Below, in pieces: positions 4,600 through 19,448 of a DNA stretch of 20,807 nt. Origin of the DNA: Myxococcales bacterium (GTDB taxonomy: Bacteria; Myxococcota; Polyangia; Fen-1088); assembly GCA_003159055.1 (NCBI GenBank), contig PMLH01000617.1:1-20807 (forward strand), given 5' to 3'. Position numbers and translations under genes: made by a program. Within the stretch, counting starts at the first letter, position 1. Every line of letters starts with the position of its first letter. The notes beneath the pieces were generated by a model. It worked only from the letters and a program-made list of their open reading frames with translations, was not told the origin of the DNA and did not search any database.

Positions 4600-4608
4600 G
4601 TTCATGCT

Positions 4609-4614: not shown

Positions 4615-4657
4615 GTGTGTGGGAGGGAGAAGGTTGAAGGAGCCGGAATTGATGCTT

Positions 4658-5116
4658 TCAAGCCAGATAGTAGGCTGCAGCGGTGGTCTGTTCTTGCGCT
4701 CGATCGTTGCAGTGGACGCAGCGGTTGTCTTCGCCAAGAACGCGGTAAGCGGTACGGACGGCTTGCAGCGTGGCCGAATCAATGTCGTCCCTCTCGACGA
4801 AAAGGCGGTCGGCGGCGAGAGCGCCGGACGCCTCCAGACGCTTGAGCGGCCGTTCCATGTCGCCCCGTACGCCCGCGAGGAAGATATCGAGGCCCTTCTC
4901 TTTGGCGTCACTGAGGAAGTGCTCGAGCTTCTCCAGGCAGACGGCGTCCGGATTACGCAGACGCTTTACCCTCAGCACCACATGGCGGATCGACTGCTGC
5001 CGAGCGCGTTCGACCACGCGCTGCAGGCTTTGAGCCCACCTTGCGTAGGCAACCAGCGCCGAATCTCGGTCGAGCAGAGTTCGGTCCAGATCGAAAAGGA
5101 CAGCCGCGACAGTCAC
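4658..5116 (-). pseudogene. Chimeric remnant: HAD phosphatase N-terminus joined to SulP-transporter STAS C-terminus
   Basis: From a GTG at 5116 the frame gives 152 residues. Residues 3-28 (TVAAVLFDLDRTLLDRDS...) are the start of a HAD-family hydrolase with its DxDxT nucleophile motif. About 10 residues later the sequence turns into the second half of a STAS domain like those at the C-terminus of SulP sulfate/anion transporters (HVVLRVKRLRNPDAV...FLAGVRGDMERPLKR, then a terminal CxxC near AYRVLGEDN and an AAAYYLA end). The rest of the HAD fold, the transporter membrane part and the first STAS strands are missing. It looks like two gene pieces fused by deletion. The open frame extends upstream to 5413 but that part matches nothing. 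It lies 58 bp upstream of ridA on the same strand. A small functional fusion protein is possible but less likely. Confidence 0.55.
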
Positions 5117-5360
5117 GTCAATTGAAAAGCTTGAGATTCCAGCTTTCAATAGCACGGTCTGCCGGCAGAGCAACCGGTCAGCGGCACATTCGGTTGCGAA
5201 TGTTGCTAGCTGTGCAGGAGTGCTGCTGTGGCAGCAGCTCGGAACATTCCCCGTTGGCATATCGGTTGCTGTGGGGGGCGGCCGCCGACAATGTGCGGAC
5301 GCCGTCGCAGGATAGGCGTGGTCGACACCATAAGCTGATGTATACGACTTCGTCTGGTCC

Positions 5361-6323
5361 ATGAAGATGCGACGATTCATTGCGAACCTTCTGTTGGCGA
5401 CAATGCCGCTCACCAGCGGCGGCTGTCATTGCGAGCAGCGAAGTGGGCAGTCGTTCAAGGCGAACGCCCAGAACGCCGCTCGCGACTCGGGATCGCAGAC
5501 GAGGCCTCACGCGTCGTTTCCGCCTTGGACGAACTCGCTGGGGATGCGGTTTCTTCCGGTCGAGGGAACGGAGGTCCTGTTTGCCGTATGGGATACGCGC
5601 GTGCAGGACTACGCCGCATTCGTGAAGGCTACCGGCCGCAAGCCGAGCCCTGGAATGTGGTCCTTGCGCAACCAACGTTATGGCCAGCACGGCGACACCT
5701 GGGACAATCCCGGATTCGTGCAAGGGCCTACGCACCCGGTCTGCGGCGTCAACTGGAATGATACTCAGGCCTTCTGTTCTTGGCTCACTGAAAAGGAGCA
5801 CGCAGAAGGGATCATCGAGGCCCATCAGAGCTATCGCCTGCCCACCGACTGGGAATGGAGTACGGCGGCGGGCCTGGCCGACCCACCCGCGGGCAGGCCC
5901 AGAGACAAGGATGAAAAGCCGATCAATGCGTATGGGTGGGGAGCAACCTGGCCACCTCCGAGCACGGCCGGAAACTACGCCGGCACCGACACCACCGATG
6001 CCGACTGGCCTCGAAATTGGAAAGTCATCGAGAATCGCCGGGATGAATTCGCCCGAACGTCTCCGGTCGGAAGTTTTCCGCCCAACAAATCTGGGCTCTA
6101 CGACATGGGCGGCAACGTCTGGCAGTGGTGCCAGGATGACTATGACGACATCCGCGGAACCAAGCCCCTTCGCGGCGGTTCCTGGGCCGACGTCGTCCCT
6201 CGATTCTTGTCGCTCAGCTTTCGGCTGGATTTTGCGCCCGAGGACCGTTTCGACTACGCGACCGGATTTCGTGTCGTGTTGACCGGCAAGAGGGCTCCAG
6301 CCAGCCGTCCACCGCATCCCTAG
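5361..6323 (+). CDS. FGE-sulfatase-fold (SUMF1-like) lipoprotein, non-FGE type
   Basis: A 320-residue protein with a charged-hydrophobic N-terminus (MKMRRFIANLLLATMPLTSGG) before Cys22, a plausible though not canonical lipobox. Residues 57-310 carry the formylglycine-generating-enzyme fold: MRFLPVEG near the start, VCGVNWNDTQAFCSWLTEKE, YRLPTDWEWSTAA, GLYDMGGNVWQWCQDDY, LRGGSW and FRLDFAPED...GFRVV. True FGEs have two catalytic cysteines in the stretch after GGS. Here that stretch (GGSWADVVPRFLSLSFRLDF) has none, so sulfatase activation is not expected. Related FGE-like proteins act as oxygenase-like or structural modules. It is divergent from the HAD/STAS remnant and convergent with the PLP enzyme gene (23 bp apart). 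Starts at 5361 and 5367 are both possible; neither has a clear ribosome binding site. Confidence 0.85.
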   Translation: MKMRRFIANLLLATMPLTSGGCHCEQRSGQSFKANAQNAARDSGSQTRPHASFPPWTNSLGMRFLPVEGTEVLFAVWDTRVQDYAAFVKATGRKPSPGMWSLRNQRYGQHGDTWDNPGFVQGPTHPVCGVNWNDTQAFCSWLTEKEHAEGIIEAHQSYRLPTDWEWSTAAGLADPPAGRPRDKDEKPINAYGWGATWPPPSTAGNYAGTDTTDADWPRNWKVIENRRDEFARTSPVGSFPPNKSGLYDMGGNVWQWCQDDYDDIRGTKPLRGGSWADVVPRFLSLSFRLDFAPEDRFDYATGFRVVLTGKRAPASRPPHP

Positions 6324-6346
6324 CGTTCCGCCTGGTCTGCGGCTTG

Positions 6347-7525
6347 CTACAAGCGGCTTGCTGCCGTAAGCGCACGGGCCACGTCGGCGACTAGGTCATC
6401 GGAGCTCTCGATCCCGGTGGATACTCGCACGTTGGATCCCGTGATCCCCGCAGCGCGACGAGCTTCTGGCGTCATGGACGCGTGGCTCATGGTCTCAGGG
6501 TGTTCGACGAGCGATTCGACACCACCCAACGATTCTGCGAATGCGAAGATCTCCAGCTCCTGAATGAAACGGAAAGCAGCTTCCTTTCCGCCTCGAATGT
6601 CGAAGGAGAGCATTCCGCCAAATCCCGTCATCTGACGCTTGGCAAGCTTGAACTGGGGGTGCGTGGGAAGCCCGGGATAGTAAACGCGTTCGACGGCCTT
6701 GTGGCTGGCCAAAAATTCCGCAAGGACGCGGGCGTTGCGCTCGTGGGCGGCCATGCGCACGGGCAGCGTGCGAATGCCGCGCATCACCAGCCAGCAGTCG
6801 AAGGGCGACGAGCATGTTCCGAGGGCGTTGACCAAGGCGGCCACTGCGGTGGCGTGCTCCTGGGTCTTCGATATGATCGCTCCGCCTACCATGTCGCTGT
6901 GGCCGTTGAGGTACTTGGTGGTCGAGTGGACCACGATGTCAGCACCGAGAGCCAAGGGCTTCTGGAAGATTGGCGACATGAAGGTGTTGTCTACAATGGT
7001 GAGCTGTCCGCGGCTCCGAGCGATGTCGCAAATGGCTTCGATGTCGACCAGATTCAGCAAAGGATTGCTCGGAGTCTCGATCCAGATTGCGCGAGTACTT
7101 GGTCGAATCGCCGCTTCGACGCTGCGCGGATCCGACATGTCGACGAAGGAAAACTCCAGCCCGCGGCTGGTCAGGATCGATGAGAAGAGACGGTAGGAGC
7201 CACCGTAGATATCGTGACCAGCGATGATGTGGCTGCCCGAAGGAAAGAGCGCCATGACCGTAGTCTCCGCCGCCATGCCGGTGGCCGTCGCTGACGCACC
7301 CGAGCCCCCCTCCAGGGCGGCCAGGCACTCCTCGAGCGCCGACCGAGTCGGGTTTGCGGTTCGGCTGTAGTCGAAGCCTTTGGTCTGCCCCGGGGCATCG
7401 AAGGCGAAGGTGGAGGTGGCGTAGATGGGGACTGCTACGGCGTTGAAGGTGCTGTCCTTGCGGGTTCCCGTCTGAACGCAGATCGTCTCGGTGTGGTAGT
7501 CGCGGGCATGCGTGGGGTTCTTCAT
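6347..7525 (-). CDS. Cystathionine gamma-synthase/gamma-lyase family PLP enzyme
   Basis: A 392-residue member of the Cys/Met metabolism PLP enzyme family, which moves sulfur between cysteine and homocysteine skeletons (gamma-synthase, gamma-lyase or O-acylhomoserine sulfhydrylase). Visible are the YSR triad start (Tyr53-Arg55), DIYGGSYR with the stacking Tyr107, IWIETPSNP, the PLP lysine Lys204 in HSTTKYLNGHSD, and SLGGVESLVEHP near the C-terminus. Length is normal. The ATG at 7525 gives the usual N-terminus; the longer open frame to 7804 has no similarity. A gamma-lyase would release cysteine and feed the desulfurase locus downstream on the map, but sequence alone does not separate synthase from lyase. 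A palindrome at 7574-7585 lies just upstream. Confidence 0.9.
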   Translation of the reverse strand: MKNPTHARDYHTETICVQTGTRKDSTFNAVAVPIYATSTFAFDAPGQTKGFDYSRTANPTRSALEECLAALEGGSGASATATGMAAETTVMALFPSGSHIIAGHDIYGGSYRLFSSILTSRGLEFSFVDMSDPRSVEAAIRPSTRAIWIETPSNPLLNLVDIEAICDIARSRGQLTIVDNTFMSPIFQKPLALGADIVVHSTTKYLNGHSDMVGGAIISKTQEHATAVAALVNALGTCSSPFDCWLVMRGIRTLPVRMAAHERNARVLAEFLASHKAVERVYYPGLPTHPQFKLAKRQMTGFGGMLSFDIRGGKEAAFRFIQELEIFAFAESLGGVESLVEHPETMSHASMTPEARRAAGITGSNVRVSTGIESSDDLVADVARALTAASRL

Positions 7526-7573
7526 CGTCACCGATTCCAAACACGGAGCCACGTTGTTGGGAACGCATAGAGT

Positions 7574-7585
7574 GGACGCGTGTCC
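7574..7585 (-). promoter_or_regulatory. Palindromic operator candidate upstream of the cystathionine-type enzyme
   Basis: The minus strand reads GGACACGCGTCC, flanked by T and A so that the arms extend to 7573-7586. Four bases downstream is a -10-like TATGCG (7569-7564), giving a predicted leader of roughly 30 nt to the ATG at 7525. It shares the GAC(N4)GTC core with the AGAC(N4)GTCT sites before three other genes here, but its outer base differs and the core alone is not rare. It is the weakest member of the set. Confidence 0.35.
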
Positions 7586-7625
7586 AGTAAAGTGACGACG
7601 ACGGAGGACCGCAGAGGCAGCCACA

Positions 7626-7643
7626 CTGCTGCGAGGGCAGCAG
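7626..7643. repeat. Perfect hairpin, 7-bp stem and 4-nt loop
   Basis: CTGCTGC-GAGG-GCAGCAG on the plus strand. It is about 100 bp upstream of the cystathionine-type gene start. No T-tract follows on either strand, so it is not a typical intrinsic terminator. Confidence 0.4.
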
Positions 7644-7897
7644 GGATGTTGGAGATTTGGTGCCGGAAAGACATTCCGACAAGGAATCTCTAGGTTTTCC
7701 AGGCTTTCCCCCTGGCATCGAGGTTGCAGTCGCTGGTCATCGTGGTTCGCCCACCGGCAATTCTGACTCGGCAAATCGCATTCTCCTTTCTCGTTCAGAA
7801 CCAAGTGCCGTAATCAACACACACAACCAATTGGTTGGGCAGGTGGGCGAACCGATTTTTCGAGAGAGCACGCTTTGTGGAAGGTGCGGTGAGGGGT

Positions 7898-7952
7898 GGT
7901 CGGTGCGCGTGCCGGAGCGGGACGTCCGGGAGGCGGGGTGCGCGCACCGACC
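7898..7952. repeat. Long inverted repeat downstream of the radical SAM gene
   Basis: Arms GGTCGGTGCGCG (7898-7909) and CGCGCACCGACC (7941-7952) are perfect 12-bp complements around a 31-nt GC-rich loop. It lies 43 bp after the stop codon of the minus-strand radical SAM gene. It could act as a 3'-end stabiliser or a terminator, but there is no U-run after it. Confidence 0.5.
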
Positions 7953-7994
7953 CGGGAGGGTAGTGCCAAATTGAAGAAGCAATGAAAGTCGCCG

Positions 7995-8978
7995 TCAAGG
8001 GATCCGCACGATCAATCGACGAGATGGACTGTCGGATAGCGGACCGTCGCCGACCACGCGGGCAAGCTGGCCCTCGGCGAGCAACTGATTGACGTGTTTT
8101 GCAACCAGCCCTTCGTGACAGCCCAGCAGGAAGGCGAGGGTGGTGGTGTCGAAAGCGCGATCCGCGAGGCGGGTCAGGATGGCTTCGCGCAGATATTCGT
8201 CGTCGATGCGACGGACCTCACCCGGCTGCCGCCTGGCTACTTCGAAGACCGTGAGAGGAAGAAGTTGCTCGTGGATGCGAGCCAGCAACTCGTCCGATGC
8301 CTGCTTCACCCACGGCAGGACTCCGGGCCGATCGAGGCGGTTGAGCTGGACGGCGTCCGGTCCGATACGCAGCGCAGCCTCACGGAGCGCGGCGATCTCG
8401 TGCTCGGAGTCATTAACCCCCGGGACGACGAAGACCTCCAGCACGAATGTGCCGGAGTACTGTCTCCGCAGCGCCACCAGGCCGTCGATGACCTCGTTCA
8501 CGTGGATGCTCGGCTCGGGCCGGTTGATGGTCCAAAACGACTCGGACGTGGCCCCGTCGAGCGAGGGAACCAAGAGATCTGCATCGCGGACTGCGCTTCG
8601 GATCTCGGGGCGACGAAAGAGCGTTCCATTGCTCAGCACCGCGACTTTGTAGTCGTGGTAGTGGCGCTTGATGTGCGCGATGATATCGCCTAGGCGCGCG
8701 TGCAGTGTGGGCTCGCCCGAGCCGGCGAATGTTACGAAATCGAGGAACGGCTGCCGACCAAGGTAGTCGTCGAGCTCCGCGACTACGTCGCCTGTAGGCA
8801 CGAAGATGTCGGTCGTCGCGGTCAGGTCGGTCGTGGCGCCACACTCGCAGTAGATGCAGTCGAGCGAGCAGGTCTTGTACGGCAAAAGGTCCACCCCCAG
8901 CGAGCGGCCAAGCCTGCGGGAAAACACGGGACCAAAGAGGTATTTGTAGCCAAGCGCGCTGGCAGGCTTGTCTGTCAT
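7995..8978 (-). CDS. Radical SAM protein (COG0731-like) with C-terminal extension
   Basis: A 327-residue cytosolic radical SAM enzyme of unknown substrate. The [4Fe-4S] motif CSLDCIYC gives Cys37, Cys41 and Cys44 in the classic CxxxCxxC spacing. It is followed by the glycine-rich TFAGSGEPTLH and the VLSNGTL strand that help bind S-adenosylmethionine. The opening GYKYLFGPVFSRRLGRSLGVD is characteristic of the small radical SAM group related to wyosine-type enzymes. The last 70 residues (from about 255) look like a small winged-helix domain (FDTTTLAFLLGCHEGLVAKHVNQLLAEG). It starts 9 bp after the sigma-54 activator gene on the same strand, so the two very likely share a transcript. Confidence 0.9.
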   Translation of the reverse strand: MTDKPASALGYKYLFGPVFSRRLGRSLGVDLLPYKTCSLDCIYCECGATTDLTATTDIFVPTGDVVAELDDYLGRQPFLDFVTFAGSGEPTLHARLGDIIAHIKRHYHDYKVAVLSNGTLFRRPEIRSAVRDADLLVPSLDGATSESFWTINRPEPSIHVNEVIDGLVALRRQYSGTFVLEVFVVPGVNDSEHEIAALREAALRIGPDAVQLNRLDRPGVLPWVKQASDELLARIHEQLLPLTVFEVARRQPGEVRRIDDEYLREAILTRLADRAFDTTTLAFLLGCHEGLVAKHVNQLLAEGQLARVVGDGPLSDSPSRRLIVRIP

Positions 8979-8987
8979 CGCGACGGT

Positions 8988-10085
8988 CTACCCGGCACTG
9001 GTTGAAGCATCGTGCGACGAGGTTACACCGGGCTTCTTGTTTCTACGTCCGGCGATGAGCCCGGAGATGGCGAGACGCGCGCGGAGCACGTTGCGGCTGA
9101 TACCGAGGAGGTTGGCCGTCTGCACCTGGTTCTGGTGGCAGAAGTGATAGGCTTGCGTTACCACGGCCGATACGATCTTCTCGTACAGCTCCGGGCCTCC
9201 CTGCTCGAAAAGGGGCGTAAGCGCGCGTTCGAACGACGCAAGGTTCGGCGTCGGATTCGACGCGGCCTCGGCAGAAACGCTGGCCCGGTTGGTCTGCAAG
9301 GAAAGGTCGCCGGCATCGATGAGACCATCTCGGCTGGTCAGCACCGCACGGTGAAGCACGTTTTCGAGCTCCCGAACGTTGCCCGGCCAGCTATGGTCGA
9401 GAAGCTTCTGGATGGCCTCGTCGCTGAGGGTGGGGTCGTCGACGCCACACCGTTGGCCGTGGACGCGCAGGAAATGCTCGGTCAGGGGAAGGATGTCCCC
9501 GGGCCGCTCGCGCAGCGGCGGCACGCTGAGCGAGGCGACGTTCAGTCGGAAGAACAAGTCCTCTCGGAAACGTCCCGCGCGTACCGCCGCCCCCAGGTCC
9601 ACGTTGGTGGCAGCGACCAACCGGACATCGATTGGGATCGCCGTGCGCGAACCCAGTCGCACGACCTCCCGTTCCTGAAGCACGCGCAATAGCTTCACCT
9701 GCAGAGGCAGCGACAAGTCGCCGATCTCGTCGAGAAACAGGGTGCCTCCCTGCGCCGCCTCGAACCATCCGCTCTTGGAGGACACCGCCCCGGTGAAGGC
9801 GCCGCGCTCGTACCCGAACAGCTCCGCGTCGACAAGGTTTTCCGAAAATGCGCCGCAGTTGACCGCGACAAACGGCCTAGTCGCCCTTCGGCTCAGCTCA
9901 TGGACATAGCGCGAGACAATCTCCTTGCCGGTTCCCGTCTCGCCGATGACCAGTACGGTTGCTTCGCTCGGGGAGATCTGACGAATTTGGCGTAGCAGCT
10001 CACGCGAACACGGATCTTCGAACACCAATGTCCTGGCACGCACCGTGAGGGAATGGGGTCGAAAATTCGGGGCTGTGATGACCAT
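8988..10085 (-). CDS. Sigma-54-dependent activator without an N-terminal sensor domain
   Basis: A 365-residue bacterial enhancer-binding protein that would remodel sigma-54 RNA polymerase. Only about 25 residues precede the AAA+ domain, so the usual receiver, GAF or PAS sensor is absent. Visible: Walker A GETGTGKE (48-55), the sigma-54-contacting GAFTGA (95-100), Walker [11 protein letters not shown] (114-123), RLVAATN, and [19 protein letters not shown] Fis-type helix-turn-helix lies at about 305-345 ([19 protein letters not shown]). Such proteins are often controlled by a partner or by their own level. The start has no Shine-Dalgarno. A palindrome and -10-like TATAGC (10098-10103) lie so close that the transcript would be nearly leaderless. 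I found no sigma-54 promoter in the gaps I checked, so its target is unknown. Confidence 0.92.
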
Positions 10086-10117: not shown

Positions 10118-10164
10118 AGCATAGTGGATTGTGTTCGGCAATCGGAAAACCGGACAACCCATGG

Positions 10165-11139
10165 CTAGATGCTCCAGTCGAAGCCAGTTTCCTGCTTGAA
10201 CTCGGTCGGCGGCTGATTCTTGTACTGCAGCTCGGGATTCTTGACCGTGACCCGGGTGCGCGGCGGCACCGACTGCGTGACGAACACGTTGCTGGCGATG
10301 ACCACACTTTTGCCGATCACCGTTTCGCCACCCAGGATGGACGCACCCGAATAGACTGTGACCTCGTCCTCGAGGGTGGGGTGGCGCTTGATACCGCGCA
10401 GACTCTGGCCGCCGCGGAGCGAAAGCGCACCCAGGGTCACGCCCTGGTAGATCTTCACGCGCTTGCCAATCTGAGTGGTTTCGCCAATGACCACGCCGGT
10501 TCCGTGATCGATGAAGAAGTACTCGTCGATGGTGGCTCCGGGATGGATGTCTACTCCGGTCACGCTGTGGGCGTATTCGCTCATCATGCGAGGGATCAGC
10601 GGAACGCCGCGCAGGTGCAGCTCGTGCGCAAGGCGGTACACCGTGACCGCGAAAAATCCTGGGTACGAGAAGATAATCTCGTCGGTGTCGGCCGCCGCCG
10701 GATCGCCATCGAAAGTCGCTTGGACGTCGGTGGCCAAGACGGCACGCAGCCGCGGGATGGTGCCGAGAAACTGGTGCACCACCTCGCGTGCGCGGGCGAC
10801 GACGTCGGTGTGGGTGCTGCCGCCGCGTCGGGCCGTGTGCCGAAGCGCACCCTCGATTTGCTCGGACAGCAGATTTCGGATCTCCACCAGCAGATCGCCG
10901 ACATGATACTGGATGGCCTCGCTGGCGAGGTTCTGACGCCCGAAATAGCCAGGAAACAGCAGTTCGCGCAACAACGTGATGACCTCAATGATGGCGTTGC
11001 GGCTGGCGAGCTTGCCCGCATCGATGTGCCTCGTGATGGGCTGGCTCCGGTAGCTCTCGGTGATGTTCTGCACGAGCTCCGCCAAATCGCTGCTGGCGGT
11101 CTGGCTATCTGGGGACGGAACGACGTCTTCGTTACTCAT
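10165..11139 (-). CDS. cysE: Serine O-acetyltransferase (CysE/EpsC type)
   Basis: A 324-residue enzyme making O-acetylserine from serine and acetyl-CoA, the acceptor for sulfide in cysteine synthesis. Residues 1-190 are the helical N-terminal region. From about 192 the left-handed hexapeptide repeats begin (VTGVDIHPGATI, GVVIGETTQIG). The catalytic pair appears as Asp211-His212 in FFIDHGTG, and the second histidine as His253 in IKRHPTLEDEV. The start ATG at 11139 overlaps the desulfurase stop as ATGA (11136-11139), which fixes it. The frame stays open far upstream inside the desulfurase gene, but that part is not this protein. Acetyltransferase genes of this long type are regular companions of family 2A encapsulin and desulfurase genes. 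It is the last gene of the run. Confidence 0.93.
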   Translation of the reverse strand: MSNEDVVPSPDSQTASSDLAELVQNITESYRSQPITRHIDAGKLASRNAIIEVITLLRELLFPGYFGRQNLASEAIQYHVGDLLVEIRNLLSEQIEGALRHTARRGGSTHTDVVARAREVVHQFLGTIPRLRAVLATDVQATFDGDPAAADTDEIIFSYPGFFAVTVYRLAHELHLRGVPLIPRMMSEYAHSVTGVDIHPGATIDEYFFIDHGTGVVIGETTQIGKRVKIYQGVTLGALSLRGGQSLRGIKRHPTLEDEVTVYSGASILGGETVIGKSVVIASNVFVTQSVPPRTRVTVKNPELQYKNQPPTEFKQETGFDWSI

Positions 11140-12662
11140 ACAAGACCTCCGCCCGACCCGCTTTGCAAGCGGCGGACCGCCGCCACCAAGTGGTCGATTT
11201 CTTCGTGGGTGTTGTACAGGGCCAGTGACGGACGGACGGTAGTCTCCAGGCCATAGCGTCGCAGCGCCGGCTGCGCACAGTGGTGCCCGGAGCGAACGGC
11301 GATGCCTTCGCGATCGAGCGCCGCGCCCACGTCTTCCGAGCGGAAGCCGTCGAGCACGAACGACAGCACGCCGGCCTTCTCCCGGGCCGTGCCGATGAGG
11401 CGCAGTCCCGGGATCTTCGCAAGCTCCCCCATGCCGTGTTCCAGCAGCTCGGTCTCGTGCCGCGTGATGTTCTCGATGCCGACCTTCTGCACGTAGTCGA
11501 TGGCCGCACCCAGGCCCACCGCATCCGCGATGTTTCCAGTGCCGGCCTCGAAGCGCGCAGGGGCTGCGTGGTAGACCGTCCGCTCGAAGGTGACGTCGGC
11601 GATCATGTTGCCGCCGCCTTGCCACGGCAGCGTCGTGTTCAGCACGTCGCTCTTGCCGAACAGCGCCCCGATTCCGGTCGGCCCGAAGACCTTGTGACCG
11701 GAAAAGACGTAGAAGTCGGCATTCAGCGCCTGTACGTCGACGCGCAGGTGAGGAACCGCCTGCGCCCCGTCGACCAGAACGCGTGCGCCGTGGCGGTGGG
11801 CCGCCGCGACCATTTCCTGCACCGGCGTGATGGTGCCGAGCGCGTTCGACACCTGGGTGAGCGCCACGATGCGCGTCCGCGGGCCAAGCAGCCGCTCGTA
11901 TTCCTCGGGAATGATCTGCCCACGGTCGTCGATGGGCGCTACCCGAAGCACCGCACCCTTCTCGGCGGCGAGTTGCTGCCACGGCACGATGTTGGAGTGG
12001 TGCTCGAGCCAGGTGACCACGATCTCGTCGCCCGCGCGAACGTTCTGCCCGCCCCACGCCTTGGCCACCAGGTTGATGCCCTCGGTGGCCCCGCGCACGA
12101 ACACGATCTCGTTCGCCGACGGTGCGTTCAGGAACCGGCGCACTTTCTCGCGAGCCGCCTCGTACGCGTCTGTCGAGCGGGCCGCAAGGACGTGGGCCGC
12201 GCGATGGATGTTCGAGTTCTCGTGCTCGTAGAAGTACTTCAGACGGTCGATGACTGCCTGAGGTTTCTGCGTGGTCGCCGCGTTGTCGAGCCACACCAGG
12301 GGCTTGCCGTGGGCTTGCTCCTGCAGGATGGGGAAGTCCCGACGGATGGACGTCACGTCGAACTGCCCTGCCCCCGGCGCAACCTGGGGAACCAGCTCGG
12401 GATAGATCAGATAGACCGAGGACGCCGACGCTGGCGCCGATGGAAGTGACGGCTGCGTGGCTGGGGCAACCGTCGGCGCGGCATACGCCGATGCCGGGTA
12501 GCTCGGCGCGGGCGGCACCGGCGAGGGAATCGTCGGCACCGCCAACGTCAGCGGGGCGCTGGCCGCCGCGAACAGCTCATTGGCCAGCCGGGCAATCAGC
12601 CCTTCGTCGACGGGAGCGGCCACCCCGGGACCGCTCACCGAGATCTCGTCAAAGTTGTTCAT
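11136..12662 (-). CDS. Encapsulin-associated cysteine desulfurase (SufS-like) with cargo N-terminus
   Basis: A 508-residue PLP enzyme that takes sulfur from cysteine as a persulfide, leaving alanine. The SufS/CsdA-like core spans about 100-505: YLDNAATT-type LVWLDNAATTQ, ATEGINLV, the PLP lysine Lys324 in SGHKVFGPTG, and the persulfide cysteine Cys462 in RSGHHCAQP. Residues 1-100 are not found in ordinary SufS. They hold a likely amphipathic helix (GLIARLANELFAAA, 21-34), a Pro/Ala/Ser-rich disordered stretch (35-82) and a short hydrophobic motif (VYLIYPELVPQV, 83-94). In characterised family 2A systems such an extension directs the enzyme into the shell. The start overlaps the encapsulin stop as ATGA (12659-12662) and the end overlaps the acetyltransferase start, so shell, cargo and acetyltransferase are probably translated together. 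Confidence 0.95.
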   Translation of the reverse strand: MNNFDEISVSGPGVAAPVDEGLIARLANELFAAASAPLTLAVPTIPSPVPPAPSYPASAYAAPTVAPATQPSLPSAPASASSVYLIYPELVPQVAPGAGQFDVTSIRRDFPILQEQAHGKPLVWLDNAATTQKPQAVIDRLKYFYEHENSNIHRAAHVLAARSTDAYEAAREKVRRFLNAPSANEIVFVRGATEGINLVAKAWGGQNVRAGDEIVVTWLEHHSNIVPWQQLAAEKGAVLRVAPIDDRGQIIPEEYERLLGPRTRIVALTQVSNALGTITPVQEMVAAAHRHGARVLVDGAQAVPHLRVDVQALNADFYVFSGHKVFGPTGIGALFGKSDVLNTTLPWQGGGNMIADVTFERTVYHAAPARFEAGTGNIADAVGLGAAIDYVQKVGIENITRHETELLEHGMGELAKIPGLRLIGTAREKAGVLSFVLDGFRSEDVGAALDREGIAVRSGHHCAQPALRRYGLETTVRPSLALYNTHEEIDHLVAAVRRLQSGSGGGLV

Positions 12663-13600
12663 CGCGCACGTATGTATTCGTGGTAGGTGTCGACGTCGAC
12701 GTTTTCGAGAGAAGCGATGGCGTCCTCGGTCAGCACGGCCGCCGAGCAGTAGAGCGACACGAGGTACGACGCGATCGCGGTGCGGTCGATGCCCATGAAG
12801 CGCACCGACAGACCTGGCCCCTGCTCACCCTGCAATCCAGGCTGGAACAGACCGACCACGCCTTGCTTGGCTTCGCCGGTGCGAAGCAGAAGGATGCTGG
12901 TCTTCTGCGCGCCCGCCTTGCCCGCCAGTGGAATCTTGTCCGACGGAATGAGGGGGACGCCACGCCAAGTGATAAACGGGTTGCCGAACAAGGTGACGGT
13001 GGCCGGCGGAACCCCGCGCAGCGTCGCCTCGCGGCCGAAAGCCGCGATGGCGCGCGGGTGCGCGAGGAAGAAGCCCGGCTCTTTCCAGACCCTGGAGATC
13101 AGCTCGTCGAGGTCGTCCGGCGTCGGTGGCCCCGAGCGCGTGGGCAGTCGCTGCGAGGCATCGACATTCTTGAGCAGGCCGTAGTCGGCGTTGTTGAGCA
13201 GCTCGAACTCCTGGCGCTCCTTCAGCGCCTCGATGGTGAGGCGGAGCTGTTCCTTGAGCTGGTCGTGCGGGCTGTTGTAGAGGTCTGTGATTCGCGTGTG
13301 AACCCCGAGCACGGTCTTGATGGAGCTCAGGTTGTACTCGCGCGGCTTCTCGACGTAATCCACGAAGGTCGACGGGAGATCCTGCTCCGTCTTCTGACCA
13401 CAGACCGCAACCTCGGCGATGTCGCCGGGCTTGGCGCGGTTTACGCGGTAAACGCCGGCCTCGACCGGAATCCACGACAGAAGCCTCGGCAACCAACGGG
13501 GCGTGATGACGCTGGTCTGGACAGCGGTCTTGGTCGTGTTTGCAAGCTGGCGAGCAGCAACGTCGCCGAGCACTTTGCGTCCTTGGGTCTCTTCGGTCAT
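12659..13600 (-). CDS. Family 2A encapsulin shell protein (SrpI-like)
   Basis: A 313-residue HK97-fold protein that self-assembles into a protein nanocompartment. Recognised from its overall family 2A sequence: N-terminal LGDVAARQLANTTKT, RWLPRLLSWIPVEAGVYRVN, EYNLSSIKTVLGVHTRITDLYN, NADYGLLK, VTLFGNPFITWRGVPLIPSDK and the late GLSVRFMGIDRTAIASYLVSLYCS. There is no cyclic-nucleotide-binding insert, which separates it from family 2B. Length is typical. Published work on this family shows a cysteine desulfurase as cargo and sulfur accumulation inside the shell. GGAGAAG (13610-13604) gives a good ribosome binding site before the ATG at 13600. A 93-bp gap separates it from the upstream fusion gene, so a separate promoter is possible; only a half-site like AGACAC was seen there. 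Confidence 0.95.
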   Translation of the reverse strand: MTEETQGRKVLGDVAARQLANTTKTAVQTSVITPRWLPRLLSWIPVEAGVYRVNRAKPGDIAEVAVCGQKTEQDLPSTFVDYVEKPREYNLSSIKTVLGVHTRITDLYNSPHDQLKEQLRLTIEALKERQEFELLNNADYGLLKNVDASQRLPTRSGPPTPDDLDELISRVWKEPGFFLAHPRAIAAFGREATLRGVPPATVTLFGNPFITWRGVPLIPSDKIPLAGKAGAQKTSILLLRTGEAKQGVVGLFQPGLQGEQGPGLSVRFMGIDRTAIASYLVSLYCSAAVLTEDAIASLENVDVDTYHEYIRAR

Positions 13601-13603
13601 GGT

Positions 13604-13610
13604 CTTCTCC
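13604..13610 (-). promoter_or_regulatory. Encapsulin ribosome binding site
   Basis: GGAGAAG on the minus strand, with GGAG 6 nt from the ATG. It is stronger than the sites of its operon neighbours, consistent with the need for many shell copies. Confidence 0.6.
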
Positions 13611-13693
13611 GTGGCGGTTGAGGGGATGCGGGGCGGATGATGCAGTGTCTGGGATGTGCGCCAAAGCTAGGCTAGGCGCGGCGGCAAAGCCGG

Positions 13694-15127
13694 TCAGTAT
13701 CGGGGAAGGGAGTTGTCGACCCTCTCGGCCCAAGCGTGGACACCACCTGCGAGAATCTGCAGGCGATCGAAACCGGCCTGCCTGAGCTGGCGGTATGCCT
13801 GGACGCTGCGAGTGCCGTGGTGGCACGACAACGTGTAAGTCCGGGACGAGTCGAGCTCGTGGATGCGGGCGGGAATTTCGCTCAGTGGAAAGGCCACGGC
13901 ACCAGGAATCTGCACGATCGCTTGCTCGTGCGACTCACGCACATCCAGAAGATTGAAGTGCTCGCCTGCCTTTCGGCGCCGGTCGAGCTCCTCGACGGAA
14001 AGCGCGGGGATACCGGAGGCGTCGACATCGGCCTCTTCGCCGCGGATCCCGCAGAAGGCCTCGTAGTCGATGGGCGCGGTGATGGTCGGGCTGGACCCGC
14101 AGACCGCACAGTTGGGCTCCTTGCGGACAGTCAGCTGCCGGAATTCGAACCCCAATGCGTCGAACATCACAAGTCGTCCAATCAACGGATCACCGATGCC
14201 GAGGATCAGCTTCAGTACTTCCAGTGCCTGGAGGGTGCCGACGATGCCGGGCAGAACCCCGAGTACCCCGCCCTCCGCGCACGAGGGAACCAGGCCGGGC
14301 GGCGGCGGCTCTGGGAACAAGCAGCGGTAGCAGGGACCGCGCTGGGCGTCGAAGACTGCCACCTGTCCGTCGAAGCGAAAGATGCTGGCGTAGACGTTCG
14401 GCTTGCCGGTCAGCACGCACGCGTCGTTGACCAGGTAGCGGGTGGGAAAGTTGTCGGTCCCGTCGGCGATAATGTCGTACTGACTGAAGAGGTCAAGCAC
14501 GTTCCAACTGGACAGGTGGGTCGAGTGGGCAACGATTTCGATGTCGGGATTGAGCTGGCGCAAACGATCTTTGGCCGCATCCAGCTTGGGCCGACCGACA
14601 TCCGACGTCGAGTAGAGAATCTGTCTCTGGATGTTGGTGAGATCCACCACATCGAAGTCGACGATGCCAAGGGTGCCCACGCCGGCAGCGGCCAGATACA
14701 GCGACAGGGGCGAACCGAGACCGCCCGCGCCGATGCAGAGCACGCGTGCCTTCTTGAGCTTCTTCTGCCCTTCCAGCGTCACCTCCGGCATGATGAGGTG
14801 GCGGCTGTAGCGTAGGATTTCGTCGCGGGACAGCTTGGGCTCGGGCGCGCCGCCAGCGATGGCAGGTACCAGGGTCAGGACGTCGCCGTCTCGAACCGGC
14901 ACAGGCTGGCCCGAAGCGCCGAGGTTGCGAACATTCTGATCGCCCAGAAAGACATTCACGTAGCTGCGAACGCGACCGTTGTCATCGAACAGTTGTCGCC
15001 TGAGGTCCGGGCTCTTGTCAGCCAACGCCGACAGTGCGCCTTCGACGGTGTCTGCGGTGACCTCGACGCCCTTCGCGCCGCCGACGTATCTGCGGAGCGG
15101 GGTTGGAATGAGAATGGATACGGACAT
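13694..15127 (-). CDS. Sulfur carrier (ThiS/MoaD/CysO)-E1 adenylyltransferase-rhodanese fusion
   Basis: A 477-residue three-domain protein for sulfur activation. Residues 1-93 are a ubiquitin-like sulfur carrier ending in LVPAIAGG, the diglycine that is adenylated and thiocarboxylated when free; here it runs on into APEP. Residues 98-345 are a MoeB/ThiF/MoeZ-type E1 domain: RYSRHLIMPEV, nucleotide loop GAGGLG (133-138), DFDVVDLTNIQRQ, DGTDNFPTR, CYRCLFPEPPPP...PSC (Cys283) and zinc pairs Cys266/Cys269 and Cys340/Cys343. Residues 375-477 are a rhodanese domain with active-site Cys435 in CHHGTRS. The start at 15127 shares one base with the JAMM gene's stop (TGATG). The frame upstream of 15127 is not part of the protein. 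Separate CysO and MoeZ proteins supply sulfur for cysteine in actinobacteria; here both are in one chain. Confidence 0.94.
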   Translation of the reverse strand: MSVSILIPTPLRRYVGGAKGVEVTADTVEGALSALADKSPDLRRQLFDDNGRVRSYVNVFLGDQNVRNLGASGQPVPVRDGDVLTLVPAIAGGAPEPKLSRDEILRYSRHLIMPEVTLEGQKKLKKARVLCIGAGGLGSPLSLYLAAAGVGTLGIVDFDVVDLTNIQRQILYSTSDVGRPKLDAAKDRLRQLNPDIEIVAHSTHLSSWNVLDLFSQYDIIADGTDNFPTRYLVNDACVLTGKPNVYASIFRFDGQVAVFDAQRGPCYRCLFPEPPPPGLVPSCAEGGVLGVLPGIVGTLQALEVLKLILGIGDPLIGRLVMFDALGFEFRQLTVRKEPNCAVCGSSPTITAPIDYEAFCGIRGEEADVDASGIPALSVEELDRRRKAGEHFNLLDVRESHEQAIVQIPGAVAFPLSEIPARIHELDSSRTYTLSCHHGTRSVQAYRQLRQAGFDRLQILAGGVHAWAERVDNSLPRY

Positions 15128-15597
15128 CAACGAACCTCCGATGGGGATGGGGACGGAATGGAAATCCTTTCGATGGCAATGGACCGGAATGCTCCTCCGT
15201 CGTGTTCGAGCGCGAAGGCATTCAGGTCGGCCGATTTGCCTTGGGCCACGGCGCAGATCGCATACAGGTAGCCGACCCACGCGTGAACGCGGTCGTATTC
15301 AGATGGCCTTGCCGGGTGATCAGGATGGCTGTGGAAGTAGCCGATCACGTCCTGATTGTGCCGGCGAGCTTCCTTTTCAGCGGCCATTTGAAATTCTGGC
15401 GGAATCAGATAGCGCCTGCGCTGGTCGTCTCCGTGCTGATTGGGCGCGGAACGAATAGCGAGCACCGTCCACGCTTCACTGTCGCCGTCGCCGTTTCCGA
15501 AAATCGCGCCACACGCTTCGAGTGGATACGCGCGTTCGCACTGCAGGCGAATCTCGGCCTCCACGTTGGCGGGCAGACGAAGCGATGCAGCGCTCAT
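15127..15597 (-). CDS. JAMM/MPN+ (M67) metallopeptidase, QbsD/Mec+-like
   Basis: A 156-residue zinc peptidase. The JAMM signature is complete: Glu27 (LEACG), then His89 and His91, Ser99 and Asp102 in FHSHPDHPARPSEYD, matching HxH(x7)SxxD. Bacterial members next to sulfur-carrier genes trim residues after the carrier's diglycine, or release cysteine from a carrier-cysteine adduct. The start overlaps the cysM-like stop as ATGA (15594-15597) and the end overlaps the carrier-fusion start (TGATG). This tight packing argues that it processes the carrier domain of the next gene's product, whose GG is followed by Ala-Pro-Glu-Pro. The open frame upstream of 15597 is a shadow of the cysM-like gene. Confidence 0.92.
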   Translation of the reverse strand: MSAASLRLPANVEAEIRLQCERAYPLEACGAIFGNGDGDSEAWTVLAIRSAPNQHGDDQRRRYLIPPEFQMAAEKEARRHNQDVIGYFHSHPDHPARPSEYDRVHAWVGYLYAICAVAQGKSADLNAFALEHDGGAFRSIAIERISIPSPSPSEVR

Positions 15598-16646
15598 GAT
15601 GCTTGCTCCACCCACTGCGGATCGCCTAGGGACTTCATCACATTGTCCGGCAGGATGGCAACCACGACACCCGAGGTAAGCTCGCGCGCCACCTTCAAAG
15701 CCGCGGCAACCGCTGCGCCACCGCTGGTTCCGGCAGGCAATCCCTCTTCCCGCGCCAGTCGACGTGCCATTTGCTGTGCCTCCTCGGTGGAGACCTCCAC
15801 CTGTCGGTCGACAAGGGATGGATCGAAGATGGGCGGCACGTCGCTGGTGGCGTAGTGCTTGGTCCCCTCGATGCCGTGGTAGGCGGCATCGGGCTGGACC
15901 GCGATGCGCTGGATGGCGGGGTTTAGCTCGGTGAACCTTCGACTGTTGCCTGTGAAGGTGCCGCTGGTTCCCATGCAGGCCACGAAATGCGTGATCCGGC
16001 CTGCGGTCTGCCGCCAAATCTCAAGCGCGGTACCGTGATAGTGGGCCTGCCAGTTCATGGGATTGCTGTATTGATCGAGATAGACGTAGTCGTCGGGATG
16101 CTCGGCCACCATCTTCTTGGCGGTCGCTCGCGCGCCATCATCACCTTCCAGCGGATCGGTCAAAATCAGGCTGGCGCCCAGTAGGCGAAGCAATCGCTGT
16201 CGGGCCATGGTGGCATTGGCGGGCATGCACAGGGTGACGCGATGCCCCCGGCTGGCGCCGAGCTGGGCCAGCGCGATGCCGGTGTTGCCGCTGGTGGAAT
16301 CGAGCAACCCGCGCTTGCCGTCGAGAAGTCCACGTCGCTCGGCATCGCGAATCATCCAGAAGGCGGGGCGATCCTTCACCGACCCGGCCGGATTCAGCCA
16401 CTCGCACTTTCCGTAGATGGCGGCCGGCGTGATGTCTACCGGGATTCTCTGTAGGCGAACCAGCGGCGTGTTGCCCACTGTGACGCTCGCACTGCTTGTC
16501 TCAGTGCCTTCGCTTACCGACGTATCAACAGCCGCGTGTGCAGTCATTTCCTCAACCCGCGCTTTCTGCGCGCCCATGCGTTTGGGCATGAGCACCAGGG
16601 AGGCGCTCTTAGCCCGGCTCGCTGCCGTTACCAGGCCGATGATCAT
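15594..16646 (-). CDS. PLP-dependent cysteine synthase, CysM-like
   Basis: A fold-type II PLP enzyme (350 residues from the first ATG) that joins an activated serine with a sulfur donor. Visible: GNTPLVRL, the PLP lysine Lys91 in NPAGSVKDRPA, the [15 protein letters not shown] loop, MGTSGTFTGN phosphate clamp, and PAGTSGGAAVAA. The motif YHGIEGTKHY and its place beside JAMM and carrier genes suggest a CysM-type enzyme able to use carrier thiocarboxylate. The arginine that gives M. tuberculosis CysM its O-phosphoserine preference (EPRYG context) is not evident at the matching place, so the donor is unresolved. Starts at 16646 or 16547 are both plausible (GGGTAAG and GAGG upstream respectively). 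The stop overlaps the JAMM start. Its own palindrome-promoter lies upstream, behind the cysK terminator. Confidence 0.88.
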   Translation of the reverse strand: MIIGLVTAASRAKSASLVLMPKRMGAQKARVEEMTAHAAVDTSVSEGTETSSASVTVGNTPLVRLQRIPVDITPAAIYGKCEWLNPAGSVKDRPAFWMIRDAERRGLLDGKRGLLDSTSGNTGIALAQLGASRGHRVTLCMPANATMARQRLLRLLGASLILTDPLEGDDGARATAKKMVAEHPDDYVYLDQYSNPMNWQAHYHGTALEIWRQTAGRITHFVACMGTSGTFTGNSRRFTELNPAIQRIAVQPDAAYHGIEGTKHYATSDVPPIFDPSLVDRQVEVSTEEAQQMARRLAREEGLPAGTSGGAAVAAALKVARELTSGVVVAILPDNVMKSLGDPQWVEQAS

Positions 16647-16674
16647 TTCTTACCCGGCTGGCCCGGCTCTGTCA

Positions 16675-16694
16675 ACTATAAAAGACACGTGTCT
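16675..16694 (-). promoter_or_regulatory. Palindromic operator plus -10-like element before the cysM-like gene
   Basis: AGACACGTGTCT at 16683-16694 is a perfect palindrome preceded by CT on the minus strand. Two bases later comes TATAGT (16680-16675), a 5/6 match to the -10 consensus. It would give a leader of about 20 nt to the ATG at 16646. An alternative TTGACA (16675-16670) with a poor TAAGAA -10 exists and would favour the later start at 16547. Confidence 0.55.
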
Positions 16695-16719
16695 AGGCAT
16701 CGGAACGCGCTGTGTGGCC

Positions 16720-16752
16720 GAAAAGAAAGAGGGCATCGTCTGGAGCCCTCTT
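16720..16752 (-). terminator. Intrinsic terminator after cysK
   Basis: On the minus strand, an 8-bp perfect stem AAGAGGGC/GCCCTCTT (16752-16745 with 16734-16727) with a 10-nt loop is followed by TCTTTT (16726-16721). It lies 35 bp after the cysK stop. It uncouples cysK from the cysM-JAMM-carrier genes, which begin with their own promoter immediately downstream. Confidence 0.8.
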
Positions 16753-16787
16753 CGAGCAATTGGGCCAAGGAATGACTAAAATGACTA

Positions 16788-17774
16788 CTAAATGGTATCG
16801 CCGGCCTTGGCTTCGGCCACGCCAGCGAGCGTCCCTTCGAACAGCGGTCCGCTGAGGTAGCGCTCGCCCGAGTCGGGCAGGATGACGACGATGGTCTTGC
16901 CCGAGAACTCGGGCAGGGCTGCCAAGCGGGCCGCCACCAGAGCCGCAGCACCGCCGCTCACGCCGGAGAGAATGCCTTCCTCGGAGGCAAGCCGTCGCGC
17001 GAAAGCGATGGCGTCCGCGGAGTTGACCTTCTCGACCCGGTCGACGACAGACACGTCGAGAGTTTTCGGCACAAAGCCCGCGCCGATGCCCTGAATCTTG
17101 TGTGGTCCCGGCTTGATTTCCTGCTTGGCCAAGAACTGTGTGATGACCGGGCTCTCTTCCGGCTCGACCGCCACGCTGACGATGGCCTTGCCCTTCGTCT
17201 TCTTGATGAAGCGGGAAACGCCGGTGATGGTTCCACCCGTGCCGACGCCGGATACCAGTACGTCGATCCTTCCGTCGGTGTCTTCCCAAATCTCGGGTCC
17301 GGTGGTCTCTTCGTGGATGGCCGGATTGGCCGGGTTCTCGAACTGCTGGGGCAGGAAGTACTTGGCGGGATTGGAGTCGCGAATCTCAACCGCCTTCTTG
17401 ATCGCGCCGTTCATACCCTTGGGGCCTTCGGTGAGGACGATGGTGGCCCCGAAAGCCTTCAAGACCTTGCGTCGCTCGACGCTCATGGTCTCGGGCATCA
17501 CGAGGGTGATCTTATAGCCGCGCGAGGCGGCGACAAACGCGAGGGCGATACCGGTATTGCCCGAGGTCGGTTCGACGATTTCCACGCCGGGCTTCAGGAG
17601 CCCCTTCTTTTCGGCGTCCCAAATCAATGCGGCGCCGAGGCGGCATTTGACGGAATACGCCGGATTGCGTCCTTCAATCTTGGCGAAGACCTTGGCACCC
17701 TTGGGAACCACTCGGTTGAGTTGGATGAGCGGCGTGTGCCCGATGGAGAGCGTATTGTCCTTGAACGTGGCCAT
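16788..17774 (-). CDS. cysK: Cysteine synthase A (O-acetylserine sulfhydrylase)
   Basis: A 328-residue fold-type II PLP enzyme that makes cysteine from O-acetylserine and sulfide. Visible: [12 protein letters not shown], the PLP lysine Lys43 in [31 protein letters not shown], the [21 protein letters not shown] stretch typical of Cys[12 protein letters not shown] clamp, and [17 protein letters not shown]. The start at 17774 has AAAGGA 6-7 nt upstream. It is followed by a strong terminator, so it is probably transcribed alone or with the XRE-cupin gene 93 bp upstream. With the acetyltransferase of the same locus it forms the standard OAS route, and the two proteins could form the known cysteine synthase complex. 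Confidence 0.95.
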
Positions 17775-17867
17775 GGAATGTCCTTTCGTAGAGTCGCTTT
17801 GATGTCCCGTTTAGCAGACATCCGCGGTGAATGCTAGACAATTCGTCGTGGCGACGATGCGGCGGCA

Positions 17868-18521
17868 CTAGCGTGTGTATATGATGACGTCGTGGCAACG
17901 CATCTCGGATGTGCCGCTGTTCTCGTAGCTGTGAGGCTGATCGGCGGTGAAGGAGATGGCATCGCCAGCGGCAAGATCGTGCGACTCTTCCCCGATACGC
18001 ATACGAAGCTGCCCGTTGAGCACGACCACGAGCTCTCGCGTGCCCGTGGCGTGTGGATCCGAGACGTGTTGGCCGTGCGAGGACAGTCGCAACTCGTATG
18101 CCTCGGTCCAGGGCGAAGCACCGGCAGGCGTCAACGGCCGACTTTCCATCCGACCGTTGGAGGAGCGCAGGATTTGGGCCTCGTGTCGGCGCAGGACTGT
18201 CGCGTTTTGCGAACTGACGCCGATCAGCTCGGCAAAGTGGACCCCGAGGCCGACGGCTATCTTCCACAGGACACCCAGTGAGGGATTGGTGCGTTGGGTT
18301 TCGATTTGGGAGAGCGCGGCACGGCTTACGCCGGAGGCGACCGCCAGCTGGTCCAGCGACAGTCCACGAGCTTTACGCATCTCTCGGAGATTGGCTGCTA
18401 CGCGCTTGGCCATCTCGGCGGCCCCCAGGTCGTCCCCGGGTGGCAAGGGGGCGGCTCTCAAGGCGGATGATGCGGAGCGGGAACTAGCGTGGCGGGAAGC
18501 TGAGAGCTGTTTGTTGGCCAT
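17868..18521 (-). CDS. XRE-cupin transcriptional regulator (SutR-like architecture)
   Basis: A 217-residue regulator. Residues 1-36 are a variable tail. Residues 42-98 are an XRE helix-turn-helix (ANLREMRKARGLSLDQLA, then SGVSRAALSQIETQRTNPS). Residues 143-205 are a cupin_2 barrel (ELRLSSHGQHVSDPHATGTRELVVVLNGQ...GDAISFTADQPHSYEN), which in this family binds a small effector or metal. The same architecture occurs in E. coli SutR, a regulator of sulfur-use genes. It heads the sulfur locus on the same strand as cysK. The ATG at 18521 is preferred over a TTG at 18578. A TAGAC(N4)GTCT palindrome lies 167 bp upstream of the ATG, next to a -10-like TAGAAT, so it may regulate itself. Confidence 0.9.
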   Translation of the reverse strand: MANKQLSASRHASSRSASSALRAAPLPPGDDLGAAEMAKRVAANLREMRKARGLSLDQLAVASGVSRAALSQIETQRTNPSLGVLWKIAVGLGVHFAELIGVSSQNATVLRRHEAQILRSSNGRMESRPLTPAGASPWTEAYELRLSSHGQHVSDPHATGTRELVVVLNGQLRMRIGEESHDLAAGDAISFTADQPHSYENSGTSEMRCHDVIIYTR

Positions 18522-18714: not shown

Positions 18715-18978
18715 CCGCGGCGTTTTCGCGCGGTTGGAGCGCAGGAGAAGGCGGCCTCCCAAGCCACCAAGGTTCCATCCAACGCAGCATCCCTCGACTT
18801 CGGCGTGCGGGATGAGGCCGCACGCCAACCGACTGACGCCTTCTACAAACGGTGGTGGTTCTGGACCGCCATCGGTGCCGTCGCCGCAGGCACCGCGACA
18901 GTGGCGATCATCATGGCTGAGCGCGATCCCACGAAGGTTCCGAGGACGACACTCGGATCGCAGGGGGCCTTGCCATGA
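18715..18978 (+). pseudogene. 3' remnant of a PEGA/TPR-type protein with a C-terminal membrane segment
   Basis: The frame is open from a stop at 18712-18714 to TGA at 18976-18978, with no plausible start codon near its head. The 87 residues end in FYKRWWFWTAIGAVAAG followed by a hydrophobic run and DPTKVPRTTLGSQ. This tail is typical of myxobacterial PEGA- or TPR-domain membrane proteins, whose last helix and short tail look alike. The body of the gene is missing. The stop overlaps the next ATG as ATGA (18975-18978), an arrangement that fits an old two-gene operon with a lipoprotein gene. Confidence 0.6.
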
Positions 18979-19448
18979 AGGCACGCTTCCCACTTGCCCT
19001 CGGCCTCCTTGCCAGTTTTTCCGCATGCAAGGACGCTGATTCCGTAGTCTTGGTGAACGTCTCTATCAACCCAGACGCGTCGCCCGTCTATTCGCTTCGC
19101 GTGGCAATGTCCACGGCACGGGCCCACGACACCAAGATTGTCTCCACCGAGGACCAGCATCTCTTCCCGGATCCTCGTCGTGGCGTGCTCTCGAACAAGG
19201 TTCTGAATCGCTGGTATCGCGACCTCGCCGACCAAGCTGGCGTCCGCCGCATCACCAGCCACGGCGCCCGCCACACCGCCGGCAGCAGCTATGCCGTCAT
19301 GGGCGCTGGTCAGAAGGTCATCGGTGCGTTGCTCGGGCACAGCGATAGCGCATCTACCGAGCGGTACACCCACATCGCCCCGAGCGCGACGACGGCGATG
19401 GTCGAGGCCCGATGGCTGCGGTTGGGTGGCGGGGAGGGTGGAGTGTAG
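18975..19448 (+). pseudogene. Chimera: lipoprotein start fused to the 3' end of a tyrosine recombinase
   Basis: 157 codons in one frame but made of two unrelated parts. Residues 1-55 begin with a signal and lipobox-like ASFSAC (Cys18) followed by VNVSINPDASPVYSLRVAMS, a style common in myxobacterial lipoproteins. From about residue 57 the sequence is the catalytic end of a phage-type integrase: HGARHTAGSSY (His96, Arg99), ALLGHSD (His122) and the nucleophile Tyr131 in TERYTHI. The first catalytic arginine and the core- and arm-binding domains are absent, so it cannot recombine DNA. The join looks like a deletion or insertion scar left by a lost mobile element. Confidence 0.7.

Follow-up and report, generated by a model that had tools for sequence, protein, structure and literature searches.

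Family 2A encapsulins are protein shells that probably store sulfur, and we know of no established route by which that sulfur leaves them. We analyzed a Myxococcales contig (PMLH01000617.1; the whole 20,807-nucleotide stretch is called the window below, and all coordinates refer to it) that carries, on its minus strand at 10165 to 18521, a locus in which a family 2A shell and its cysteine desulfurase are encoded next to a JAMM metalloprotease, a CysM-type enzyme and a carrier-E1-rhodanese fusion. Together, the JAMM/carrier/E1-rhodanese genes and the shell/desulfurase genes form a real composite locus, which recurs in other bacteria.

Comparison with described systems

Each half of the locus has close counterparts. 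Sulfur storage has been described for family 2A-type shells (PMC12407261), and the storage half resembles the SrpI-type encapsulin/desulfurase operons (PMC8049743, PMC8346489) in that both shell and cargo desulfurase score above their NCBIfam cut-offs. It also shares with those operons a serine acetyltransferase (SAT) and a rhodanese; according to PMC8346489, no accessory genes are more enriched than these two. Unlike in SrpI-type operons, however, the rhodanese of the window sits in a carrier-E1 fusion, and JAMM, CysM-type and CysK genes are added. The other half has the same four functions (carrier, E1-rhodanese, JAB protease and cysteine synthase) as the operons in row 4c of Iyer 2006 (PMC1779556); the accessible part of that paper mentions neither an encapsulin nor a cargo desulfurase for them, and "cysteine desulfurase" occurs zero times in the main text. 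Like the mycobacterial CysO/CysM/Mec+/MoeZR pathway (PMC3227635), the window has a CysO-like carrier, an E1-rhodanese, a CysM-type enzyme and a JAMM protease, but its carrier and E1-rhodanese are one protein, and its CysM-type enzyme is a putative counterpart. Finally, a Deinococcus JAMM protease cleaves a linear MoaD-MoaE fusion and releases the carrier at its terminal Gly (PMC8832034), as we propose for the window, where the fusion partner is the carrier's own E1 and not MoaE.

Our literature search, which covered neither supplementary neighbor tables nor subscription papers, returned no paper pairing "encapsulin" with "ThiF" or "thiocarboxylate." The pairing of "encapsulin" with "cysteine synthase" returned two 2021 papers (PMC8049743, PMC8346489); ThiF is absent from the accessible main text of both and JAMM from that of PMC8346489, their supplementary neighbor tables lying outside the search. 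Both halves are known singly, and their union is new as far as we searched.

Gene content of the locus

We assigned families by comparing Pfam and NCBIfam profile scores with the cut-offs of each model and identified the nearest solved structures by a search of the PDB. Eight genes, all on the minus strand, fill the locus exactly, from the XRE-cupin ATG at 18521 to the SAT stop at 10165 (PLP, pyridoxal phosphate):

17868..18521, minus: XRE-cupin regulator, 217 aa (HTH_3 59.5 bits, Cupin_2 46.6 bits)
16788..17774, minus: CysK-type O-acetylserine sulfhydrylase, 328 aa (TIGR01139 448.4 bits, cut-off 350.95)
15594..16589, minus: CysM-type PLP enzyme, alternative starts 16646 and 16547 (TIGR01138 340.4 bits, below the equivalog cut-off of 394.2)
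15127..15597, minus: JAMM/Prok-JAB metalloprotease, 156 aa (PF14464 81.7 bits, cut-off 25)
13694..15127, minus: carrier-E1-rhodanese fusion, 477 aa, ATG at 15127 (ThiS, ThiF and Rhodanese in one open reading frame [ORF])
14849..15127, minus: carrier domain of the fusion, residues 1-93, internal GG at 92-93 (3dwg_C alignment)
14093..14836, minus: E1 (ThiF/MoeB-like) domain, residues ~98-345 (PF00899 280.7 bits)
13697..14017, minus: rhodanese domain, residues ~371-477, CHHGTRS loop (PF00581 51.4 bits)
12659..13600, minus: family 2A encapsulin shell, 313 aa (NF041162 498.9 bits, cut-off 380)
11136..12662, minus: cargo cysteine desulfurase, SufS-like, 508 aa (NF041166 835.3 bits, cut-off 800)
12567..12599, minus: cargo-like motif LIARLANELFA, desulfurase residues 22-32 (resembles, but does not exactly match, LA..(.)[FY]F)
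10165..11139, minus: SAT-like protein, 324 aa, C-terminal Ile (TIGR01172 160.8 bits, cut-off 210.65; EpsC 148.0 bits; both below cut-off)

The first-pass annotation of this DNA had proposed this gene content, order and strand, and all were borne out, with coordinates that match to the base. Its four overlapping junctions are also present: the genes overlap by 4 bp at CysM/JAMM, shell/desulfurase and desulfurase/SAT, and by 1 bp at JAMM/fusion.

The carrier domain aligned over its residues 1-93 with residues 1-93 of 3dwg_C (E value 7.7e-12), the best chain among the matches listed; the database lists this chain as a 9.5 kDa culture filtrate antigen, and we take it to be CysO. Together with the position of the CysM-type gene directly upstream of the JAMM gene, this match supports the earlier proposal of a CysO-like carrier branch. 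Because the GG is internal to the fusion, a terminal GG would exist only after the predicted cleavage. The fusion has both parts of a MoeZR-like protein, an E1 with a C-terminal rhodanese, and the MoeZ model covers residues 94-477 at 481.6 bits, below its cut-off of 647. Across an alignment of 40 fusions, A91, G92 and the rhodanese C435 are invariant and G93 is nearly so. An AlphaFold model of the fusion had a mean predicted local distance difference test score (pLDDT) of 79.4 and a predicted template modeling score of 0.57, with pLDDT below 50 at residues 89-99; such low confidence at the GG junction weakly fits a flexible, cuttable linker. The closest relative of the fusion is 96% identical; other near relatives come from a Polyangia bacterium (89%) and a Deltaproteobacteria bacterium (77%), and fusions with 74% and 78% identity (best segment) are encoded in two metagenome-assembled genomes (MAGs) labeled Chloroflexi.

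The JAMM protein carries an HSHP...PSEYD motif, read from its sequence, and its nearest solved chain is 2kcq_A; this motif and the Prok-JAB match make it a candidate Mec+-like protease. For the CysM-type enzyme the nearest solved chain is 2jc3_A and the best solved relatives are O-acetylserine enzymes. It also aligned with 3dki_A (E value 2.2e-47), whose database entry reads Cysteine synthase B / O-phosphoserine sulfhydrylase, and these alignments do not tell O-acetylserine from O-phosphoserine as its substrate.

On the storage side, the 2A model is the best NCBIfam match of the shell; the 2B model was also above its cut-off (443.2 versus 400 bits) at a lower score. SrpI-like is its sole Pfam match, as in a family 2A HK97 shell that has no cNMP-binding domain, and its best solved relatives are 8t6r_A (E value 2.6e-137) and SrpI, 6x8m_A. 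We rejected a phage-capsid reading, given that the 2A model was passed and that the gene neighbors are metabolic.

The desulfurase matches positions 221-623 of NF041166, which is the catalytic part, and its N-terminal part lies outside the match; about 95 residues precede the matched part, as in a SufS-like neighbor with an N-terminal cargo extension. Of 91 distinct extensions of this kind from desulfurases encoded at encapsulin loci, 48 contain the motif LA..(.)[FY]F, where shuffled sequences predict 0.8; the pattern was drawn up once some of its test sequences had been read, and a common fuller form is LPD....L.RLA.EFF. The cargo-like N terminus claimed in the first-pass annotation is plausible, since LIARLANELF near residue 22 resembles this motif, but with LF in place of FF it narrowly misses the pattern and is not among the 48. 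In serine acetyltransferases, a C-terminal Ile of this kind binds CysK. SAT ends in this residue in the window and in three further loci (L123, L202 and L226), and does not in L026 or L155.

Recurrence of the composite locus

We defined a full set as JAMM, carrier, E1, rhodanese and desulfurase within 7 kb of a shell gene and sampled genomes around an Oxalobacter-titled locus (G001) and around Campylobacteraceae (G007), Chloroflexi (G002) and Acidobacteria (G006) centers. The shell search matched 7 of 369 genomes in the class of G001, 68 of 245 in its family, 5 of 298 Campylobacteria (the class of G007) and 10 of 247 Acidobacteriota (the phylum of G006); among Chloroflexi, the phylum of G002, it matched 0 of 201, and control genomes gave no match either. 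The full set was present in five of the six Campylobacteria encapsulin loci, which came from five genomes, in 3 of 67 loci of the G001 family sample (from 68 genomes; G576, a marginal match, was left out), Oxalobacter among them, in 1 of 10 Acidobacteriota loci, and in one of four plasmid loci taken from 32 matching records (Aliarcobacter). None of the six further encapsulin loci in the class sample of G001 had it. Co-occurrence beyond this genome had been named beforehand as a test of the proposal; it was found, in that the combined locus recurs and many related fusions appear to share contigs with related shells. The first-pass interpretation, a putative closed cycle of sulfur storage, thereby gains partial support.

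Gene order recurs as well. Eight of the 10 full loci outside the window (L026, L155, L156, L123, L202, L204, L206 and L226) have the order CysM, JAMM, carrier, E1/rhodanese, shell, desulfurase, and six of these (L026, L123, L155, L156, L202 and L226) have SAT after the desulfurase. The lack of CysM in L189 and L203 is uninformative because their contigs start with JAMM or immediately ahead of it. The Aliarcobacter cibarius plasmid (L123) carries CysK along with the full set, which has insertion elements inside it; at 3511-7647 of that locus they separate JAMM from the carrier and split E1 from the rhodanese. Prok-JAB occurred in 38 of 298 Campylobacteria genomes, namely in 5 of 5 with a shell versus 33 of 293 without one, counts that ignore kinship. 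Within the G001 family sample, SAT is found in 61 of 67 loci, and 53 have a rhodanese without E1 no more than 7 kb from the shell, 52 of them upstream of it and on the same strand. The E1-rhodanese of the combined loci is likewise upstream of the shell, like the plain rhodanese in most family-sample loci, which favors a hand-over of sulfur from shell to rhodanese.

L223, from the Acidobacteriota sample, has CysM-type, JAMM, shell and desulfurase genes and neither carrier nor E1 nearby, and genome G628 holds a second shell copy (L201/L205) with an internal TGA, adjoining an E1-rhodanese gene. We also surveyed the E1/JAMM module on its own, keeping 80 of 388 loci; 29 of the 80 have JAMM, carrier and E1, and 15 of the 29 have a CysM-type gene too. 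A group of loci from SAR324 and similarly titled proteobacterial MAGs (L010, L024, L027, L028, L030, L032, L048 and L078) combines carrier, E1-rhodanese and JAMM with a Cys/Met PLP enzyme, with no shell in the DNA examined, and may represent a thiocarboxylate route to homocysteine. No relatives were found on viral contigs.

Carrier tails and the probable role of the JAMM protease

Carriers encoded as free proteins suggest what the JAMM protease might do. We found 39 of them with a GG and counted 34, after removing five short second copies (L081 and L197-L200, 3.9-kb copies of L026, L202, L203, L204 and L206); L082 is a copy of the fused L189. With a JAMM gene no more than 6 kb away in the DNA examined, 26 of 27 free carriers have a tail of 1 to 25 residues after the GG, and with none there, one of seven does (L012). 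Fisher's exact test on the 34 gave a p value of 3.5e-5, which overstates the JAMM-tail link because kinship leaves only 2 independent pairs. All nine free carriers near both a shell and a JAMM gene are tailed (L026, L123, L155, L156, L202, L203, L204, L206 and L226), and in the remaining full loci, L189 and the window, the carrier is fused.

Residues after the GG mean that exposing the C-terminal glycine needs a protease, and a fusion is the extreme form of such a tail. Trimming the carrier to expose that glycine is therefore the likely job of the JAMM protein, as judged from these sequences. Precedents besides the Deinococcus enzyme include QbsD/QbsE and HcyD/HcyS, neither of which was the subject of the 10 papers listed, of 33 matching, in our literature search. 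Another is MoaX, whose GG is cleaved behind Gly82 by a protease yet to be identified (PMC4326299), and Iyer 2006 offered, as a suggestion only, that JAB could release a fused carrier (PMC1779556).

Linkage and phylogeny of the window's clade

To relate fusions and shells akin to those of the window, we asked whether a fusion and a shell have longest contigs of equal length, which is evidence, not proof, of a shared contig. At least 18 fusions out of the best 81, all full-length, match one of the 120 best shells in this way, a count that may be too low because it is based on the best 120 of each search; for fusions on contigs of at least 5.5 kb the figure is 18 of 48. When lengths were shifted by 1-60 as a control, matches averaged 0.44 and never exceeded 3, and the next 39 hits (P0082-P0120; 38 shorter proteins and the full-length fusion P0086) had 0 matches to shell contigs. 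Some matching contigs are 5.8 and 7.1 kb long, so the fusion and shell genes would be close there.

The shell tree places those 18 shells, that of the window and three shells of no known context in a single clade (100/100). Apart from it stands a clade (100/99) in which eight shells encoded by the Oxalobacter-type, Campylobacteria and L226 loci group together. The approximately unbiased (AU) test of a single clade of paired shells gave a p value of 0.0049 with L223 and 0.0602 without it; for the E1-rhodanese it gave 0.0192, and 0.0912 without L034, L038, L001, L002, L021 and L050. The rows of the tree behind the 0.0192 value were picked after the first tree was known and include 10 of the 18 contig-linked fusions. 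The first shell tree started from 90 shells, of which a rough filter at 95% identity left 51, and contained L205 (a partial second copy whose shell gene has an internal stop), which was left out of later ones; ten shells without known context in the later shell trees were chosen by hand. These trees suggest, not firmly, that the shell-carrier pairing was gained separately in different lineages.

A proposed route from stored sulfur to cysteine

We think it narrowly probable that the locus combines a store of sulfur with an ATP-dependent path that leads to cysteine via a thiocarboxylate, and this is the best reading we have. The desulfurase, packed into the shell via its N-terminal extension, would draw sulfur from cysteine, and the shell would keep it as sulfane sulfur. 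The JAMM protease would cut the carrier off the fusion after Gly93, the E1 domain would adenylate that glycine, and rhodanese Cys435, loaded from the shell-fed sulfane-sulfur pool, would turn the adenylate into a thiocarboxylate. From this the CysM-type enzyme would make carrier-bound cysteine, which the JAMM protease would hydrolyze to release cysteine, while SAT would provide O-acetylserine for CysK and perhaps for CysM. The genes, their order, their recurrence and the carrier tails are observed; the chemistry would follow that of known families. We infer that shell sulfur is what the fusion draws on and that it moves from the store toward cysteine; the transfer between shell and rhodanese is the weakest step.

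More broadly, and tentatively, it is possible that in several lineages the 2A encapsulins are unloaded by ubiquitin-like machinery dedicated to them, in which JAMM-activated polyproteins or pro-carriers would pass stored sulfane sulfur to cysteine via a thiocarboxylate, and that the pairing was gained independently at least twice. Similar clusters in distant bacterial groups suggest how stored sulfur may be retrieved. The locus itself links a protein organelle with a system of ubiquitin-like activation, and it names candidate proteins for sulfur retrieval and a predicted cleavage site after Gly93, and the recurrence supplies compact model loci in several groups.

Several observations weigh against the route from store to cysteine. 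A 93-bp gap separates the fusion gene from the shell gene, and promoter and terminator scans were at chance level, favoring neither one transcript nor two. Among the 29 loci with JAMM, carrier and E1, 28 have no shell in the DNA examined (9 of the 29 offer less than 3 kb beyond E1), L026 being the exception. Linkage in the window's clade comes from matched contig sizes, which carry no gene order. To the kinship that weakens the tail association must be added L024, with a JAMM gene nearby and no carrier tail, and L031 and L036, with fused carriers and no JAMM gene nearby. Furthermore, in L001, a locus of a Chloroflexi MAG with a fusion near that of the window in the tree, JAMM and fusion genes are followed by a MoeA gene (MoeA_N 147.3 bits), and no encapsulin was found in that MAG.

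A fusion relative with MoeA, and with no encapsulin found in its MAG, means that a supply of sulfur to cofactors has to be considered. The carrier branch could deliver desulfurase sulfur to cofactors or tRNA (molybdopterin, thiolation), with the shell as a filter that admits only the fusion as acceptor. The mycobacterial MoeZR serves molybdenum cofactor and cysteine synthesis alike (PMC3227635), a survey in Nature Communications proposes a shell-specific rhodanese acceptor (PMC8346489), and a radical SAM gene at 7995-8978 of the window matches MoaA weakly (29.3 bits, cut-off 284.05). We nonetheless regard this version as rather unlikely, as a CysM-type gene precedes JAMM in the window and in the eight full loci with that gene order, and the subset of window ORFs that was scanned had no MoaE family match. 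The two operons might instead be mere neighbors, kept together by shared regulation or clustering with no direct hand-over of sulfur; that each module also occurs alone agrees with this, as does the gap between them, but the same order with mostly short gaps in several groups, and trees that suggest separate gains, if not firmly, make it quite unlikely in our estimate. It is highly improbable, finally, that the carrier tags proteins, for instance the shell or the desulfurase, in the manner of ubiquitin and is taken off by JAMM. The best NCBIfam match of the JAMM protein is indeed a haloarchaeal desampylase (72.2 bits, below the cut-off of 130), but a CysM-type partner and a fused rhodanese with an intact Cys loop count against a tag, and no E2-type family appears in the Pfam matches of the scanned ORF subset.

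Surroundings of the locus

Opposite the locus, four long plus-strand ORFs (10129-11256, 11280-12449, 12440-13621 and 13736-14815) had no Pfam match, and a search against Rfam gave nothing at the gathering score. Downstream of the locus and on its strand, the window encodes at 6347-10085 a sigma-54 activator, the radical SAM protein and a cystathionine-gamma-synthase-like Cys/Met PLP enzyme; Cys/Met PLP genes are near the L001 and L155 loci too. Upstream, a short plus-strand ORF (18975-19448) matches profile positions 90-169, the C-terminal portion, of the phage integrase domain PF00589. Of two further plus-strand ORFs of the window, one (1126-1506) has a TonB-dependent receptor plug domain and the other (3384-4127) a TonB C-terminal domain.

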